Assembly: GCA_963681505.1 (NCBI GenBank)
Contig: OY811971.1
Location: forward strand, 22,275,962 to 22,339,961
Origin: Eunapius fragilis
Taxonomy: Eukaryota; Porifera; Demospongiae; Spongillida; Spongillidae
DNA: 64,000 bases
Direction of reading: 5' to 3'
The notes below the pieces were generated by a model. The model saw only the letters and a program-made list of their open reading frames with translations. It searched no databases and was not told the DNA's origin. This document shows, piece after piece, positions 1,463-56,600 of the stretch; position 1 is the stretch's first letter, and every line of letters starts with the position of its first letter. The translations under genes were made by a program, and so were the position numbers.

Positions 1463-1720
1463 TATATTTCGGACAGTGTCCAGCAAAATCACCCTTGTGA
1501 TACTTCTTCAAAATTTCCAGGACTAGCAAAAGAAAAGTAACGCTTGCATTGAAATCCATGGCTAATTATAAATTCAGCATCTTATAACTTTATGATGGAT
1601 AGTCCAATTTTGGATGCGTAAGGACTATTTGACAGAAGCTGTTTGGAGTTCACGTAAAATAAAAAAAAATTGAAAACTAACCAGAAGGGTGATTTTGCTA
1701 GACACTGTCCCATATAATTA
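1463..1720. mobile_element. MITE (family M3), first copy
   Basis: About 260 bp with terminal inverted repeats built on GGGACAGTGTCCAGCAAAAT and AATCACCCTT. It is flanked by TA-rich sequence, compatible with TA target sites. The second copy, in the other orientation, is at 31880-32151 inside intron 7 of the PBRM1-like gene. No coding capacity. Confidence 0.7.
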
Positions 1721-4580
1721 TATAGTTACGGTTTGTAACCACATGCACCGCACAGGCATAGTAATATCCTGAATAAAAGACCGGAAAACAAAAATCTTAG
1801 CGAATCACATGTCATGTTATAATTTTCAGAGATTATGCAGTATATATTTTGTGTGCATTCATACTCTCCATATTTTTAATATCATAACAGGTTTCCCATC
1901 CAGCAAATCACAAATTAACATTAGAGTATTTGCTGAAATGCTCAAAGCAGTAACCACTCACACGTACTCTCTATTTAGAGGTAATAAAACTAGTAAAATT
2001 GTACTTCACTACTCCTATTACTACAGCTAACGCTGAAAGGTCTGAGACGAGTTAAAACCTATACTTGAGGTCAAGTATGATGCAGGAAATACTTAGCAAT
2101 GCAATGCTGCTTCATTGTCACAAAAATAAAACTGATTCATTGGACATGTCTGAAATAATTAAAGACTTTGTATCAGCAAATGATGCAAGGAATAATTATT
2201 TTGTGATGAAAAAAATCCCCATATTAATGTAGTTTGTACATTTTTTGGAATTATTTATTACAGCATTTGAAAACGTGCTCTTAAATGACCACGCCTACTT
2301 TAATGAAAATTAACTTCAGCCCCCCCCCCCCCCCCCCCTATTATTAAACACCTTCCTACGCCTCTGATTAATGTGAGCTTTTCTGCAATAATTAAAATTT
2401 CAAAAATTAAACTTAACTACACCAAGTAGACCGCCCCTGAATGCTTGCTGGCAGCAGGCCCAAACGGCCCCCAAACCCCTATCTCTGCACAGTGTTTGGT
2501 TAGTGCGAACATGTAATGTGCATTAAAAACATACACAATTTGTCCTCTTCCGCTATTGCTATTACTAACAATAATGGTGTCAGTGAGAAGGCCTGCTGGC
2601 TGCACCAATGCGAGTGTTGTATTTGGCTGGATTGTAGCCACATTGCTCCACCATACCAGGGATAGGAAGGTGGAGCGGAAGTTCTTAGATGCGAGTGGCG
2701 TCCCAACTTTGAAGTGGAAGAGGGGTGAGTGGAACACTGGCAGCATTATCTGTAGGCCTCCATTGCTAGAACTGGACACGCCAATCTGGTTTGCTTGATG
2801 AAGAAGTGCATGCCAGCTGAGTAGAGTGGAACATAGGGGTATTTAAGTAAATTTGTTGAGCCTAAGGTGGATATCCCTGGAGGTGTTGAACACTCCGGAT
2901 GGTCAGTCTCAGCATTGGGTTCCTGGTACTGCTCTTACCCAGTACAAAAATAGATACAGGAGTGTCCTCGAGTAATATGTTGCCTCATCTCCATAGAACA
3001 GACTTTTAACACAACTCTTGATATTGAACCCTAGAAAAGAAATACCAAGACTTTATGCATCAGACGTAAATGCCTCTACCACTAACCAAAGGTTTTGCAT
3101 CGGGCCCAAAGCACACTCCACCCCCCTCCCATCATGCAAAGTTTATGGCATCAGGCACAAAAGGCCCCAGCCACATACATGTACATGTAGTAGAACTTGG
3201 TACAAGTAGCTCAATACAAGTGATGTGCTGTAGCCAGCTAACATCAGATTAGGATAACCTCAGTTTACATAGCAACAATGCCCTATTGTTGTCACCTCTG
3301 AGCTGCACATAATGAATATTATTTAGGCACAACTGTACATGTACCTATGGGACAGCTCGTCTAGCAAAATCAGGCTTGCACAGTGGTTTAAAACCATAGG
3401 TGACCAGGACATTTTCAAATTGTTGTGAACCAATAAACCTAAATTGTTTGTATTGTTGCTTATAATGAGGTGGTGCTAAGTAAATCATGATATTAATTAT
3501 GGTTAATTAATTAAAATCTAATCAAAACAATCAAGTTTAACTATATACCCAACTGTAATGAACTGAAACATTTTAACACAACATTTTAATAATACTAAAC
3601 ATTTACTACCATATCATAGCAATTAATGTTAATAGTCATTTCAGAATAATTTATTAAAATCAACCCAATGAAATCAAAATATTTTGATCTTAATATGACT
3701 TAATCGTTCGGTAGATCGCTTATAAACGTACCGAAGGGATTCCTTCAGCTCATTGTACTCCCCTAGTATAAACATGTACACGTACAGACAACAAAAGACA
3801 AAAGTGCGCGCGCACGAAGCACTCTCGTTTCTAACAAAAACAGCATAGACGGCGCATCATTAAGAACACAAATGCTATCTATCAGACAGCACTAAGGCCC
3901 GAGAACAGCTTCGCTTGCATCGTAGCGTAGTGGCTTTAATAGTCCCCAGTCTCTTATTTGTGGCTATTTTTACCCGTTATTAACAAATTATCGTTATAGT
4001 ATTGATCTGTTACGAAGTGTTTTGTCGCGTCCGTTTAAGAATCGGCAGGATTCGGCGAGCATTATACTAAGGGCCAACGATAGATGAAAGTATTTAAACA
4101 CACAACACAGTATATAGCGCTCTAGCTTCGTTGAGCAATGAATCTAAAGTAGATTTGGGTAAAAATGGCGTCATTTTGGACCACAAATAAACAAATATCT
4201 TTAGCACAATTCATGAGAATGTCATAAATCAAGTATCATTGAAATGCTAATAAAAAGTTCTATCTAATCATTCCTTAACAATTGACTTTGTACTGTCGGA
4301 TACATAACTAGCTCATGTTTTTAGGCTAGGGTGGAAAATGGCATGATTAATGCTTTCCCTTCACACAGCTCTTTACACTTTGTGAATCCTTACAGATTTA
4401 TCTAATATTGTGATACTGTAGGGTATTACACAACAGTTTTTCCACTTGAAATGAAAAATCCTTTCCTACCAAATGTCCTGGTCCTAAACCACTGTGGCTT
4501 GTAAGGTTATAATTTTATTACTATAAAAATTGCACGTTACATTAATCAATACATCTTCGCTACGGTATTACCTTTTACTT
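1721..4580. other. Long stretch without a supported gene
   Basis: I see no exon with a recognisable product. The longest frame is 120 codons on the minus strand (2417-2779). It matches nothing I know and lacks a convincing splice or promoter context. A poly-C run sits at about 2322-2339. A TACATGTACATGTA palindrome is at 3176-3189. The part from about 3710 to 4090 is less AT-rich than its surroundings and could be a promoter or a non-coding RNA, but nothing specific supports that. Confidence 0.4.
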
Positions 4581-4599
4581 TCGTACACTTGTTCCCACA

Positions 4600-4930
4600 C
4601 CATTTCTGTACCGGTACATACTGATTGTGTGTGCATGTGTGTATGTATGTGTACACGTGTGCATATGTGTGCGTATGTGTGTATGTGTTGAAAAGTGCAA
4701 AGCAATAGAAAACTTTTCAATGCCCTTGATACTTCAAAGGCAACATAGCTTTGGAAGGTGGCAGTGAATATTATTGCTAACCTTATTACCAAACTGTTTC
4801 TCAGCTTTCTTCACAAGCACAGAACCATAGCTGTGTGTATGTATGTGTACACGTGTGCATGTGTGTGCATGTGTGGGTATGTATGTATGTGTGTGTGCAT
4901 GCGTGTGCATGTGTGTGCAAAGCAATTGAA
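4600..4930. repeat. Two blocks of imperfect (TG/TATG) microsatellite
   Basis: GTGTGTGCATG/GTATGTG-type repeats at about 4626-4690 and 4833-4920 are separated by a related 140-bp spacer, suggesting a local duplication. Short open frames here on either strand are microsatellite translations. Confidence 0.8.
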
Positions 4931-5110
4931 AACTATATTTAGCACACGAACAACATACTATATCCTACATATAGAAATGTGCTAAATATAGGACTATTCC
5001 ATTTTCCCTTATTATTAGACCCTTGTTTCCTTCCTTTTTACACCACCATTGCCTTCAAATCCTATATGCCACCAACTTTCTCATAGAGAATGTTTTTTAT
5101 ATACTTGTTT
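4931..5110. mobile_element. Partial M1 foldback MITE
   Basis: This is essentially one arm of the M1 palindromic MITE that is complete at 16557-16839. It shares the TGCTAAATATAGGACTAT, CCTTGTTTCCTT and CCAACTTTCTCATAGAGAA landmarks in order. The opposite arm is mostly lost. Confidence 0.7.
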
Positions 5111-5204
5111 CATTGATTTTTATTCATACCCGATTATGGGCCGTATAGCATGTTAAGTAATCCATCTTGATATGAGAGGGAGGTTGTAAAGGTACGACAT
5201 ACCT

Positions 5205-5560
5205 TTGAGTGACCTTAACTCTTTCGCCGAGCGAGATGCACGTTCAGGACTATGGCAATATCGCTGTCTTTTTTCAGGATCTGCTCGATACCTTGCACGT
5301 CGAGAGGTCCGTTCCTTTTCAGGATCTGAGGGGGCTTTAAGGGGCGGCCGAAATAGAAGAGAGGTTATAAATTGTCGCCCCAGCGCGATCGAACCCACGA
5401 ACGCATTTTGTACCGGGCCAGACTGAAGCAGACAGCACCCTCCCCCCCCCCCCCCCCCCCCCCATCCCCCTTCCTACAGTCTACTAATCGCATCTAGATA
5501 CCTTGCGCGTCGAGAGGTCCGTTTCTTTTCAGGCTCTGCTCGATATTTTCGAGCGAATAA
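5205..5560. repeat. Short repeats around CGTCGAGAGGTCCGTT, with a poly-C run
   Basis: The phrase CGTCGAGAGGTCCGTT followed by TTTTCAGG occurs at about 5298 and 5509, next to repeated TCTGCTCGATA. A poly-C run lies at about 5443-5463. On the minus strand near 5390 a GGGTTCGATCGC stretch resembles a pol III box B, so a tRNA-derived SINE fragment is possible. I could not find a matching box A. Confidence 0.4.
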
Positions 5561-5789
5561 CAAGAACGATTATAGTACGCACGTGCACGTTGTTAAAAAT
5601 ACATAATCTCCACAGTTAATTACCACTACGTGTAGTGCCCAGACCGTACACATTTGATTACATGATGTATACTGCTAGTAGTACTTCGTATAAAGAGCGA
5701 AGTAGGACCTATCCGAGTCGTGTCAGTGCAGTAAGCTTAACTATACGTGATTTGCTAACACAACCACCGATATATGTCATGTAGCCTCG

Positions 5790-6115
5790 AGACGTTTTGA
5801 CCACAGAAGCGAGAATGCCAACGAATTCTGAAGCCATTGGTATGATTTTTATTTCTTAAAAGTGTTCCTATCCCGAGTTATGCGTGGTCAAGAACAAGAA
5901 CAAGAAGAACGAGAAATACGTGGGACTGGGTACGAGTTTCGAAAATTGTTTTGTTCTCTACAACCACGCGATTCTGTGACATCAAACAAACACGAAACTA
6001 CTTGTTGTTACCTTCTTGTACGACGACGATAACAAGGTAAGCCATCCGCTCGTCGGGAGTCTTGTTAGAAGCGGGTCGCGTTTTTTAATGACATTCATAA
6101 TCGGGGTCAAATCCT
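5790..6115 (+). repeat. Dispersed repeat R5
   Basis: It matches the reverse complement of 16180-16515: the CTCGTACCC phrase, the runs of AAGAA/TTCTT, the ACCACGCG stretch and the AAAAAACGCGACCCG end all correspond. The two copies are in opposite orientation. No protein is recognised. Confidence 0.6.
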
Positions 6116-50660: not shown

Positions 50661-53600
50661 ATGGTATCTGCTATGCTGTATGACCACAAGTTCAAACTCA
50701 TACTGGTTGGTGACAGTTGCGTGGGCAAGACGTCGTTGATACATCGCTACACCAATTCTAAGCCTGAGGCTAGTTGTAAGTGAAATACCGTGACATAATG
50801 GGCGGGTACCGCCAAGACGCTTTGGCGACAACTATTTGGCGGAAAAAGTGCCCGCCAACTGTGTCGCCATCAATTTAATATTTAATATTTAATTTTCTCC
50901 GCCAATTAGTTATATTATCCACGTTTTTTTTGGATCGCGGAGGGGGCCGGGGAAGGGGCATTCTGTACGTAATTTCAAGTAGCCCCCATGCCGCCCCGCC
51001 ACCGGGTATATGATAATTCCCAATTATAAATCGCCTTAAGTTTAAGTATCGTGAGACTTCCACCAATTGCAAATCGCCAGTTAGTATGTACGAAAGTGAA
51101 ATACCATACATGAAGATACAACGTCCTGTGCTTGGGGCGGGCAGCTGTAAGGTTATGCGGATCGTTGTAATTCTCCTCGGCATCCAGGGTGCGTGAGGTG
51201 CAATATATATCTTCAGAACACTGCTTGCTCCTACATACATACACAAGCCTCAAGCAGAGGCCGTTGGCCTCATGTAAACTCATGTTCTCGAATCAATGGG
51301 TTTGTTTATCACAACATTATAGGGCTACCAGACTGCTGCATGTATGCACTAGAGAGGGGGGAGGCTAATACCTGTGGACGCCATGCAGTGTGGTTCAGAG
51401 GCGGAAGTACGAAGGGGGCGTGGCAGTTAAAGAGGGGTTTTTTTTGAAATGATTTATTCATAATTACATGTATCAATGCAGATTGCCTAACTTCCTGCTA
51501 TGATTAATATTATCGAATGGCTACATCCGTTGCTGTGGTTTTAAGACAGTACTGAGCTTCAGCTGCCTTATGGTTCCACAATGTGCTGGCCTCTAAACAG
51601 GTTGAGAAATGTGGCATATAATGAAGCACTCCGTATATATATATATATATATGTTATAATTACGTCACGGTAGTGCGTCCTACGTACGATATATCACTTA
51701 GGCCAAAAAACGTCCTGGTTTAGACTCTAAGCCAATCAGCACAACACGAGGAGTACTTTTTCTCCATTCATGTATTGTGCTAGTGGCTTGAGCCATGATC
51801 ATATATAGCGTCATTTGCTGCAACAGTTAGAGCACAGTTTATAATAGCAGGGGTATTTTGTTTCTGGAAGGAGTTGAGCACTTTCCAACGTCGTTCAATT
51901 GAAACGCTGCAAACTTACATGCTGCTACACTGCATAATAACTTATAGCTAGATGCATTTGTTTAGATATTGCATCACGTGCACTAACAGGTTATTCCACA
52001 TTACTTTTATATAGCACTTGCCTGGAGGTGTAGATCCAAATCTACACACTTGTACAATTTGAAGTGCCAGCTAGCACTTCTATTTCTTATGTTTCAGCTC
52101 AGTAGTTGTGCATGTAGGGGAGACCGGGTTACAAGTCACAAGTTTTGGTTATCACATCATTTATATATCTTGAATTGGTAACGGTTGACAGTAGCAATTT
52201 CACATATACAGATTAAATTTAGGTATTATAGTTTAATGTCTACCAATGTATCACGGGTGTTTCGGAGTGGACATTTACGGATATTTAGACGTCCAATTGC
52301 ACATTTACGTAAAAATGATTTTGCTTAGCTCATTCACGCACTAACATATTCAAGGCCGGTTCTGCTATGACCCAGTATCACTAACGCCTCTCTATTGATA
52401 ATTCCATGCATAGTTATAGTCTAAGCACAAACCCAAATCAACTGCTCACGCTTCTAGTAATCACGTGCTCCTTAATTGGTTACACGAGTGCATCTTTTGG
52501 CGGACTATTTGTGAGGCTCTCGAACTTCCACGGCAGGTGAGTTGTGAGATAAAAAACAGAATCTAGGAGCATTGTAAAACAATCCAAGATGGGTCACGTC
52601 TCGAGATGCGACGTCTAAGGCATATAAAATCGCCGTTGAAATGTATGAATAATTATCAACATCTTGGTTTTTATAGATGCTTCGGGATGGAGTTCCATTG
52701 CAGTCAGCTTACAAAACATTGCAGGGTGTGCGGTGGGAGATTGGTGGTGGCAAAGAAGCATTTAAAACTCCCAATCTTACAAAAAAAGAGCTTAAACTAG
52801 CATTTGGTATTGAGGTGATCTTTGATCATGTCGAGATCCACCCACCAACGTTCTGCAAACCTTGTAAGCTAAGTATGGAGAGGGTGCTAAACGCTTTGAG
52901 GCAGAAAAAGCTAGTACCATTCAGATGGTCGTGCCCTACAAGTGGAAAGTCCATATGTGTGAAGTGAGTGAAGAGCAAATTATAACTGAATTTAACAGCA
53001 TGATCACATTAAGGTTTGCCAGCATGTTGAGGTGCTGGTGAAAGGTGGTATGCAGAAAAAATGTGACAAACCATATAGCTATGCAAACATCACGTAAATC
53101 ACTACAGTCATTAGTTGCACATATTGGCATTGCACCAACAATTTCAATTAACTATCTAAAGTGTCCACTCTGCCTTTGTATTCGCACAGATGAGTAGAGC
53201 TACCATGCCATAGTCTTGTCTGTGCAGGATGTATCATAAAATGCCTGACATTGTCAGCAAACAACACATGTCCCTGTTATTATGACAACTCACCTTTAAC
53301 TGCTTCCAGCATAAATGCAGCTCCTGACGTCTTCTTGTCCCTCCTAAGTGATGTACTGCATGCTTCAATGCAACTCATGCACGTAAAACAGGCATTTCAG
53401 CAGGAACGTACCTCTCACATGTTTGCAACACTTTATCTCCTCCATGTGAAATGGATACTGAGGTACAAGTCGGCATCTGTAATTCAAAGAATGCTGTCTG
53501 AAAGCCCAGAGCCAAATGTTTTGCAGATTCCAACTAGAGTAAATCCAATCCAATAGTTTGAAGTCTCAGGAACTGTCAGAAAAAACCACAATTGAAGTAC

Positions 53601-56600
53601 AGCAGCAGTAAGCTGTAAACTATCATCAAAAAAGGCTTTAAATTACATGATGGTCCGTTTGTGAAAAGTCTTGATGTAGCATTTCAGTGGAGCCCCAGCA
53701 ATACTTTGGGGGCAACCACATTCCCAAGTCTTGAAGGTCAGACAATTGTACATGTACTTTACTAAGATCAAACTACCGTATTTCCATTACAAGCCGCGGC
53801 TTCTATTCAGGACACAATTGTACCTGCATTAAAAAAATTACCGGACTTTGACTTCCTACAGTTGTGTAGTAGTGTTTGCGCACCTTTTTTCTCTACTCGT
53901 GTTCCGATTAGCTCTTGACACGGATCTGTTCATCCAACTGTAGCAAGTCAAAGTAGCAGTGAAATTTTTAAATGCGGGTACAATTGTGCCCTGAATAGAA
54001 GCCGCGGCTAGGAAATACGGTAATGGTTATCATTATATAGCCTACTAACCTTGTGCCTGTCTATAAAAAATGGGGCCCAGCCATATCCTGTTCTCCTCAT
54101 GTATGCTCAGCAGGTTGCAGACAAATTTGAAGGGGCATTTGCTAGACTTGGAGCATGCAACTCCATCTGTGACCAATGTTTTGTAACAGATGAGAAATGT
54201 TGAGAGTTAGGAAATAGCGACATGGCGTCACAGTGGATGAGTATTAATTATGCGATATTTTTCACATGAAGCTATAGTTTCCTTTATGAACCAATTTTCC
54301 CAATGAAAATCTCTCACCCGAAATGCATCTATTAGAGGAGCACACAGTTGAGTGGGTGAGAAGATACAACTTTGGATTTGGCATGCTGGGTGAGCAAGGT
54401 GCTGAATCGATTCACCCACCGTTTCAAGGCACTTAACACCACCTACAGTTCAATCAGAAACAAATTAGAGAAAAGAGGCTACGGTGCATCTTCAAAGAGC
54501 ACTTCATAAGTACTGCTCCTGACTCAATCCATGCTCGGCCACCCACAAAGAGAGCAAAACGTATGCCAAAACACACTGCTGCTTCATAGTATATTCACGT
54601 ACACGAAGCACAACACGCGCGTTCCCTATTCCGCTTGACAATATTTGCACGTTACTTTTTAAACATAAAATTCGCGTCTCACAAAAAAGTAACATAAAAC
54701 GAAAGCTCTAAACTACCTTTGTAAAAGTCGTTTTTCAACTGGAAGTTCGCACGTCCCGGACTAACTAGTTTTGAAAACCTACCTCCGCGTAAGTAGGCCG
54801 CTTTTGTACGGCACTTCTCCAGACCGAAACCATTTTTGATGCCCAAACATACCTCGTTCAGTAGAGCACAGGTTCATCTTCAACATTACTTCGTCTAAAG
54901 GGTCATCACGTGTTCTATTCAGTAACTGTACAACGAATTCCAACGATTACAAATCTTTAAAACCGTTGCTAGGTGAGGTAATTGCCATTTCAAAATTTTG
55001 GGGCGTAGGACTTTTTGTCCCTCAATTCAATGGATCGTAACACCCGTGGTATAAGTAAGAATGCTGCTCTCACCAATCGGATGTAGTATTTGATGAATTT
55101 GTGATTTTTGTTGTGTGGTCAAAATTTTTTGGCTTTGCAATATAGGTAATATCTTAATCAGTGTTGAGTATATAAAGTAATGCAAAGTAATGTACACCGA
55201 CCAAGCTTCTCACTAAGCAATATCTATGTTCCATATGTCACTAACGATAAGTAGTTATGCATCTCAGGTATCATTGGGATAGTTGGCACAAGGTGGCTTT
55301 GGGTAAGTCGGCACACCAAATATCGATATGATTGAATGTGCTTACCTCATGCAAACCTATAGTATAGAAAGGCATCAAGAGGTTTGTTCCCGAAGACAAC
55401 AGTTACATTCAAGGGCTGTAGCCTCGTGAAAATGTGTTGTATTAATTATACCTAACTCTGTTGCAATATTTGCTGGAACACATTAATGTTGAATGGATTT
55501 CAATAATATATATAGCCTTAGGAATCAAATGCTATACTTCTAACCCTGATTGTCACAAATGCGCTGCAACACTTTGCGTGCATACTTTTTAAAAGAAAAA
55601 CTGAAATAGCTTTTATGTATCCAGATGATTGCAGATGATTTCAGACTTTTGAAAAACTTTATTTAAACGTTTGCTAAATAAGGGCGCTATGGAATATCCA
55701 AGTTGTGACAATGTAGTCCCTACTCATTTGTGTTTTAAGTCTTGCTATTAAAACCGGCGCGTGGTAAGCAATTCAACTGCAGTACTGGGTACTTCGCAGT
55801 AAAAGGAAGCTAAGTTTTCCATTTGCATATACTTGTAAGATAGGATTTGAATTTACACTAGTATCAAATTTTAATTATTGTTTAATTTTAATGCAGCTCC
55901 CGATGTTCATTGTCGGATGATACAGTTGAAGGAGAAGAGAATTAATCTTCAAATATGGTGCATCAATTAAATCATTATACTGTTCTTGTGGAAGTAAGGT
56001 TTCCTTCTCCATATATAGGGACACCCCTGGCGTGGAGAGATTTAACGATATCGCACTAGCAATGCCTAGTCAACTTCAGGTTCATGTATGTGACTGTGTA
56101 ATTTTCACACATATAAATTTGACTGTAGTGTAATCCGTTTTCTAGGGGCTTATAATTGTGTACGATAAATCAAGTCAACGATCATTTGAAAACGTTACTC
56201 GCACATGGCTTCAATGTTGTAACCAGGTACTTTGAGAAATTGAAGTAATTGCTGCATGCATACTATGCGCCCTTAGGTTGGTGGAAAGTGTGATTCATCG
56301 GTAACATTATTGGTTGGGGTTGACAAGAATCGCGAAATTGTTGTAAGCACAGAGAGAGGACAGCAGTTGGCCTCAAGTCTTGGAATTCTCTTCAGAGAAA
56401 CCAAACTCTGCAATATGGAAACTATTGAAGAGGTATGTAGTTATATGTCTTTTGTTTTCTCAACATGATGCAGCAATTAAAACAAGATACAACAATTTCT
56501 ATACAGGTATTTGAATGTGTGACCAGAGCTATGATATTGAAGGTACTTTATTTCTACTGTGCTTATTATGAAGCTTGTCAGTATGCATCATACTATGTGA

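Follow-up and report, generated by a model that had tools for sequence, protein, structure and literature searches.

What kind of mobile element leaves behind a protein relic that resembles the front of RAG1, the enzyme by which antibody genes are put together? The question is raised by a locus in a 64,000-nt stretch of the genome of the sponge Eunapius fragilis (contig OY811971.1, positions 22,275,962 to 22,339,961; this whole stretch is referred to here as the window). A first-pass annotation had described there, at 52606..54589, a frameshifted transposon relic inside a Rab-like intron, with a zinc module and a RING corresponding in order to the N-terminal third of RAG1, a C-terminal EQGAESIH block, and no core between the parts. 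We consider it very probable that the locus is a decayed, non-autonomous transposon of the Chapaev superfamily, core-deleted, copied with 4-bp target duplications, and most likely moved in trans by full-length relatives. The window copy would resemble only the front of RAG1 because the catalytic middle had already been lost by the time the family spread.

The element spans 52252-55048 on the + strand (2797 bp), and is wider than reported before; homology with sister copies ends at these limits. Its parts were scored with a protein profile, A1, built from nine relatives with the window copy excluded. The gene models of several of the nine are truncated; the zinc module is absent from P0001 and most of the RING from P0012. 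Against all 2159 open stretches of at least 20 residues in the window, the best A1 matches were 54290-54433 (GEQGAESIH frame; 56.5 bits, E 1.6e-16), 53194-53553 (RING frame; 41.7 bits, E 4.9e-12) and 52677-52964 (IHPPTFCKPC frame; 28.6 bits, E 4.3e-8), so that the three blocks are indeed present in order on the + strand, as direct reading also shows. Five weaker pieces of the element score 14.3, 12.7, 10.0, 4.2 and 1.6 bits, and all eight pieces lie in protein order. The best score in 200 dinucleotide shuffles of the element was 5.4 bits (the pieces at 4.2 and 1.6 bits are not above chance alone), and six unrelated window stretches outside the element reached at most 2.2 bits. Nothing in the element corresponds to A1 positions 284-733, which make up most of the catalytic core, and direct translation places the blocks in different frames, which are real frame breaks; the missing core and the frameshifts are thus as first described. 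The features are:

52248..52251, unstranded: left target site duplication GTAT, 4 bp (identical to 55049-55052)
52252..55048, + strand: whole element, probably non-autonomous and of Chapaev type (sister homology boundary, ends, duplication)
52252..52264, + strand: left terminal inverted repeat CACGGGTGTTTCG (inverted match to the right end; L019, a full-length relative, has the same end)
52567..52797, + strand: frame with the first CxxC pair (CRVC) of the Chapa-like zinc module (A1 positions 1-26, 4.2 bits, E 1.1; score not above shuffles, frame placed by order and by relatives L019 and L020)
52677..52964, + strand: IHPPTFCKPC part of the Chapa-like zinc module, in a different frame (A1 positions 34-75, E 4.3e-8)
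53042..53197, + strand: frame with the first RING CxxC (LKCPLCLCI), read directly and placed by relatives L019 and L020; no A1 match of its own
53194..53553, + strand: RING remainder, following helix and zinc region (A1 positions 174-283, E 4.9e-12)
53536..53545, + strand: core-deletion junction, with 1.65 kb of L019 absent (comparison with L019, junction read)
53619..53762, + strand: remnant beyond the deletion (A1 734-754, E 0.0027)
53772..54020, unstranded: nested palindromic insert resembling a miniature inverted-repeat transposable element (arms 53787-53839 and 53962-54014)
54024..54200, + strand: transposase C-terminal-part remnant (A1 784-834, E 0.018)
54290..54433, + strand: HxxxxH ... 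GEQGAESIH, closing part of the DDE core, presumed to hold the third acidic residue (A1 852-895, E 1.6e-16)
54392..54415, + strand: EQGAESIH motif (direct reading)
54437..54586, + strand: C-terminal tail piece (A1 905-938, E 0.00091)
55036..55048, - strand: right terminal inverted repeat CGTAACACCCGTG (inverted pair with the left end)
55049..55052, unstranded: right target site duplication GTAT (identical to 52248..52251)

The E, Q, A, E, S and H columns of the EQGAESIH motif are invariant in the nine-row A1 alignment.

The element belongs to a family of copies. A DNA search of the E. fragilis genome (219 Mb, 24 contigs) gave 146 candidate places; among the 40 that were scored, the window copy included, sister copies are mostly 82-88% identical to the window copy. 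In the 28 copies examined in detail (the window copy, L001, is one of them), an exact 4-bp target duplication is present in 20, among them the GTAT of the window; together with the terminal repeats and the repeated copies, this upholds the earlier description of a mobile-element relic. One and the same stretch of L019, the nearest full-length relative, is missing from every one of the 26 copies that have both ends. This stretch starts at element position 1363 (1362 in two copies) and ends at 3012 in 19 copies, at 3022 in five, and at 3031 and 3038 in one each, and the C-terminal core end follows behind one junction in every case. Since the junction is common to all 26, one deletion of approximately 1.65 kb preceded the spread. 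The palindromic insert, whose 53-nt inverted arms are 89% complementary, is absent from L019, and it too seems to be older than the spread because sister copies align through it. Based on substitutions only, sister copies lie 1.0-3.3% from the common majority sequence and the window copy 6.6%, which makes the latter an early or separate branch of the family.

Full-length relatives are found in the same genome, where searches with the RING part and the EQGAESIH part gave at least 150 and at least 154 matches, respectively (150 candidates scored in each). There were 49 RING matches with less than 50% identity; omitting two inside window-family copies, we used the other 47 for pairing with 100 EQGAESIH matches. 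A same-strand EQGAESIH match lies no more than 6 kb downstream of 30 of the 47, and in 25 of these the distance is 2.15-2.40 kb. Eleven relative regions were fetched for study. Two-ended elements of 4.38-4.46 kb, each with a 4-bp duplication, are present in L019, L021, L022, L025, L026 and L027; for L020, L023 and L024, no right end could be assigned. The first-pass annotation had proposed to look for copies with a DDE core and terminal repeats. In the full-length relatives, the RAG1-like catalytic core sits between the RING and the EQGAESIH block. The earlier view of the relic as an N-RAG-type protein gene of its own kind is thus not supported. Nor do the zinc module and the EQGAESIH block come from unrelated proteins; they belong to one protein, a Chapaev-type transposase. 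In L027, the transposase (2039-5529 within the element at 1591-5981) has eleven exons and ten GT-AG introns, picked by eye with the relatives as guide, and encodes 950 residues with no stop. L021 and L022 are 99.8% identical over 4.45 kb, and movement is therefore recent.

DUF1280 (Pfam) is found in all nine A1 relatives, and scoring of 150 out of 168 genome candidates gave at least 131 matches to it. RAG1_imp_bd matches seven of the nine at E <= 1 (best 3.9e-9) and is not found in the L027 protein; zf-C3HC4_4 matches five of the nine at E <= 1. Most of the protein relatives come from the freshwater sponge Ephydatia muelleri, and one belongs to the sea urchin Lytechinus variegatus. Several predicted E. 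muelleri proteins (P0055-P0059, P0062, P0065 and P0067) combine Chapaev pieces with other Pfam domains (e.g., PF00530, PF07714, PF00443 and PF00078), and are either gene-model artefacts or host-transposase fusions. Separately, one DUF1280 match in E. fragilis (G000:C12:711768-711968) falls within an unusually long open frame of 622 residues, which may represent a captured gene or a further Chapaev subgroup.

Chapaev DNA transposons are reportedly covered by an earlier reference, Kapitonov and Jurka (2007). The published Chapaev hallmarks are a 3- to 4-bp target duplication and terminal 5'-CAC ... GTG-3' (PMC4079192), the transposase belongs to Pfam DUF1280 (PMC3985635), and in two subgroups a RING comes after a Chapa domain, an arrangement shared with RAG1 (Kapitonov and Koonin 2015, PMC4411706). 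Chapaev, Transib and RAG1 are placed within one larger clade in PMC12730594. The window copy and its relatives have CAC ... GTG ends and 4-bp duplications, and the family has the DUF1280 transposase, the core of which is lost from the window copy. A RAG1-N-like zinc module and a RING precede this core; the module is called Chapa through its likeness to the RAG1 N-terminus and not with a Chapa profile. Compared with the published Chapa-RING elements, the present ones differ in their sponge host, in the core-deleted and decayed state of the window copy, and in the eleven-exon gene of the full-length L027.

The correspondence of the two zinc blocks with RAG1, in order, also holds: profile A1 matches RAG1 chains with E 4.4e-23 (chain residues 102-381), consistent with the RAG1_imp_bd matches. 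This likeness of the N-terminal modules rests on sequence and not on fold, as the structure search tested well only model residues 458-1053. The family shares N-terminal zinc modules and a RING with RAG1, and an RNase H core fold with CxxC and HxxxxH pairs with RAG1, ProtoRAG and Transib, at a core identity of 12-17% in structure alignments of the P0035 model.

Several observations weigh against the Chapaev reading or parts of it. An exact 4-bp duplication is wanting in eight of the 28 copies: the flanks of L004 and L006 agree over 5 bp, one end was not found in L008 and L042, and the flanks differ in L031, L035, L038 and L046. When only one relative serves as query, RING proteins other than RAG1 score no worse than RAG1 itself (LNX 1.9e-4, RAG1 4.1e-4), and the RING alone is therefore not RAG1-specific. 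The modelled protein, P0035, is approximately 30% identical to that of L027, and its first 400 model residues have low confidence. The presumed match of catalytic residues is by spacing and overall fold rather than by superposition, and the mobilisation in trans is something that we infer.

The alternative that survives best is that the locus represents a self-standing transposon whose RAG1-N-like protein is kept for its own function, as described for N-RAG-TP of Aplysia californica; we regard this as very improbable. In published accounts (PMC8355894, PMC2996935), N-RAG-TP is likewise a mobile element whose recognisable protein part is RAG1-N-like; the present family differs, in a comparison made by description and not by sequence, in that it retains a C-terminal core end and has full-length relatives. 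In many of the 150 scored genome matches, the RING frame stays open for at least 150 residues, as this alternative would predict, but all 26 two-ended copies carry the core end behind one junction. Since many copies keep the RING frame open, selection was tested on a 150-residue RING frame in 25 copies. Singletons comprise 20 synonymous, 41 non-synonymous and 3 stop changes (neutral expectation 17.3, 43.6 and 3.1), and shared changes 12, 20 and 0 (expectation 8.6, 21.8 and 1.5), so the substitutions fit neutrality, with no sign of selection. A crude ratio of 0.43 had hinted at selection, a signal that vanished with unique events and the observed mutation spectrum. Between L026 and L027 there are 26 synonymous, 32 non-synonymous and 2 stop differences, as well as length differences in three L026 exons; these give no strong indication of constraint, and L026 has itself decayed. 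As for free-standing N-RAG proteins, 33 short N-terminal-only candidates were set aside; these are mostly unnamed predicted frames, and may be single exons.

Core deletions have occurred at various junctions, and what remains looks like N-RAG each time. Within the window subfamily, L028 lacks L019 positions 3264-5105 and has both ends and the duplication AGTT, and L029 lacks positions 2880-4929, its left end not being seen. In another subfamily, L051 (G000:C1:1623800-1627600, 462-2461) is a 2.0-kb element with ends and the duplication AACC, in which the RING-zinc part continues in frame directly into HxxxxH...EQGAESIH as a 252-residue open frame, preceded by an open Chapa-like frame of 110 residues. 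These retained frames speak for a self-standing protein, but a match through the L051 junction occurs only at L051 itself (40 of 54 candidates scored), and for that reason its open frame proves no function. Four L051-like places, 96-99% alike, carry 2.1-3.9 kb more in the middle, with DUF1280 there in three of the four.

Slightly less probable still is membership of the RAGL/ProtoRAG or Transib lineage, which would make the element a direct relative of RAG1. The core fold and the N-terminal modules are the same. However, the duplication is 4 bp in 20 of the 28 copies (only L004 and L006 agree over 5) vs the 5 bp given for RAG/Transib in PMC8355894, and L027, the sole element checked, has no room for a RAG2-like partner gene, as the transposase fills it. 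Pfam gives DUF1280 and no match to the RAG1 core family PF12940 in the nine A1 members scanned; a PF12940 search of the genome was also empty, as was its control, and absence is not claimed. Finally, a chance assemblage of RING and zinc-like words in unrelated sequence can be set aside, since, although a Pfam scan of eight single broken window frames gave no match over the curated cut-off, A1 scores of 28 to 56 bits stand against 5.4 in shuffles, and the paralogues (40 scored places, most 82-88% identical) already refute it.

For the core-deleted Chapaev element, we propose the following history. The ancestor transposase would have had approximately 950 residues, made up, from the N-terminus on, of a Chapa-like zinc module and a RING, then a zinc finger, then a RAG1-like RNase H (DDE) core that ends in GEQGAESIH. 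A single internal deletion would have taken out the middle and both aspartates, and with them most of the core, leaving the ends, the Chapa/RING part and the C-terminal block; such deletions may have arisen via interrupted repair during transposition. The shortened element would then have been copied to many sites, most likely through cut-and-paste in trans by full-length relatives whose ends match its own, each insertion making a 4-bp target duplication, and the window copy would have decayed in its place between Ras/Rab-like exons.

The literature explains the N-terminal third of RAG1 either by fusion with an N-RAG element (PMC8355894) or by descent from a Chapaev/Transib ancestor already equipped with Chapa, RING and core (PMC4411706). 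The presence in a sponge genome of full-length elements that combine Chapa, RING and core, together with varied core deletions, favours inheritance over fusion, and the deletions show how the fusion account could rest on a deletion product. We judge it about as likely as not that Aplysia N-RAG-TP, to which the RAG1 N-terminus has been traced as a separate origin, is, like the window copy, a Chapaev element that lost its core. If it is, no separate N-RAG transposon is needed; the Chapa-RING front and the DDE core would have been one protein since before the split of sponges from other animals, and RAG1 would have inherited them together. The kind of element is not new, as Chapaev with Chapa and RING was already known by 2015 (PMC4411706). 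In the limited open-licence literature searched, we found neither a sponge representative nor core deletions repeatedly giving N-RAG-looking elements, no paper joining the Aplysia RAG1 work to Chapaev, and none on Ephydatia with RAG1 and a transposon, although some papers do name Chapaev and sponge.

The Rab-like setting of the element is borne out by its surroundings. A P-loop exon (GDSCVGKTS) lies near 50709. From about 56014 to 56432 there are three exon pieces which, once we had joined them, match Pfam Ras with E 7.4e-13, and this places the element between exons of what appears from its sequence to be a Ras/Rab-like gene.
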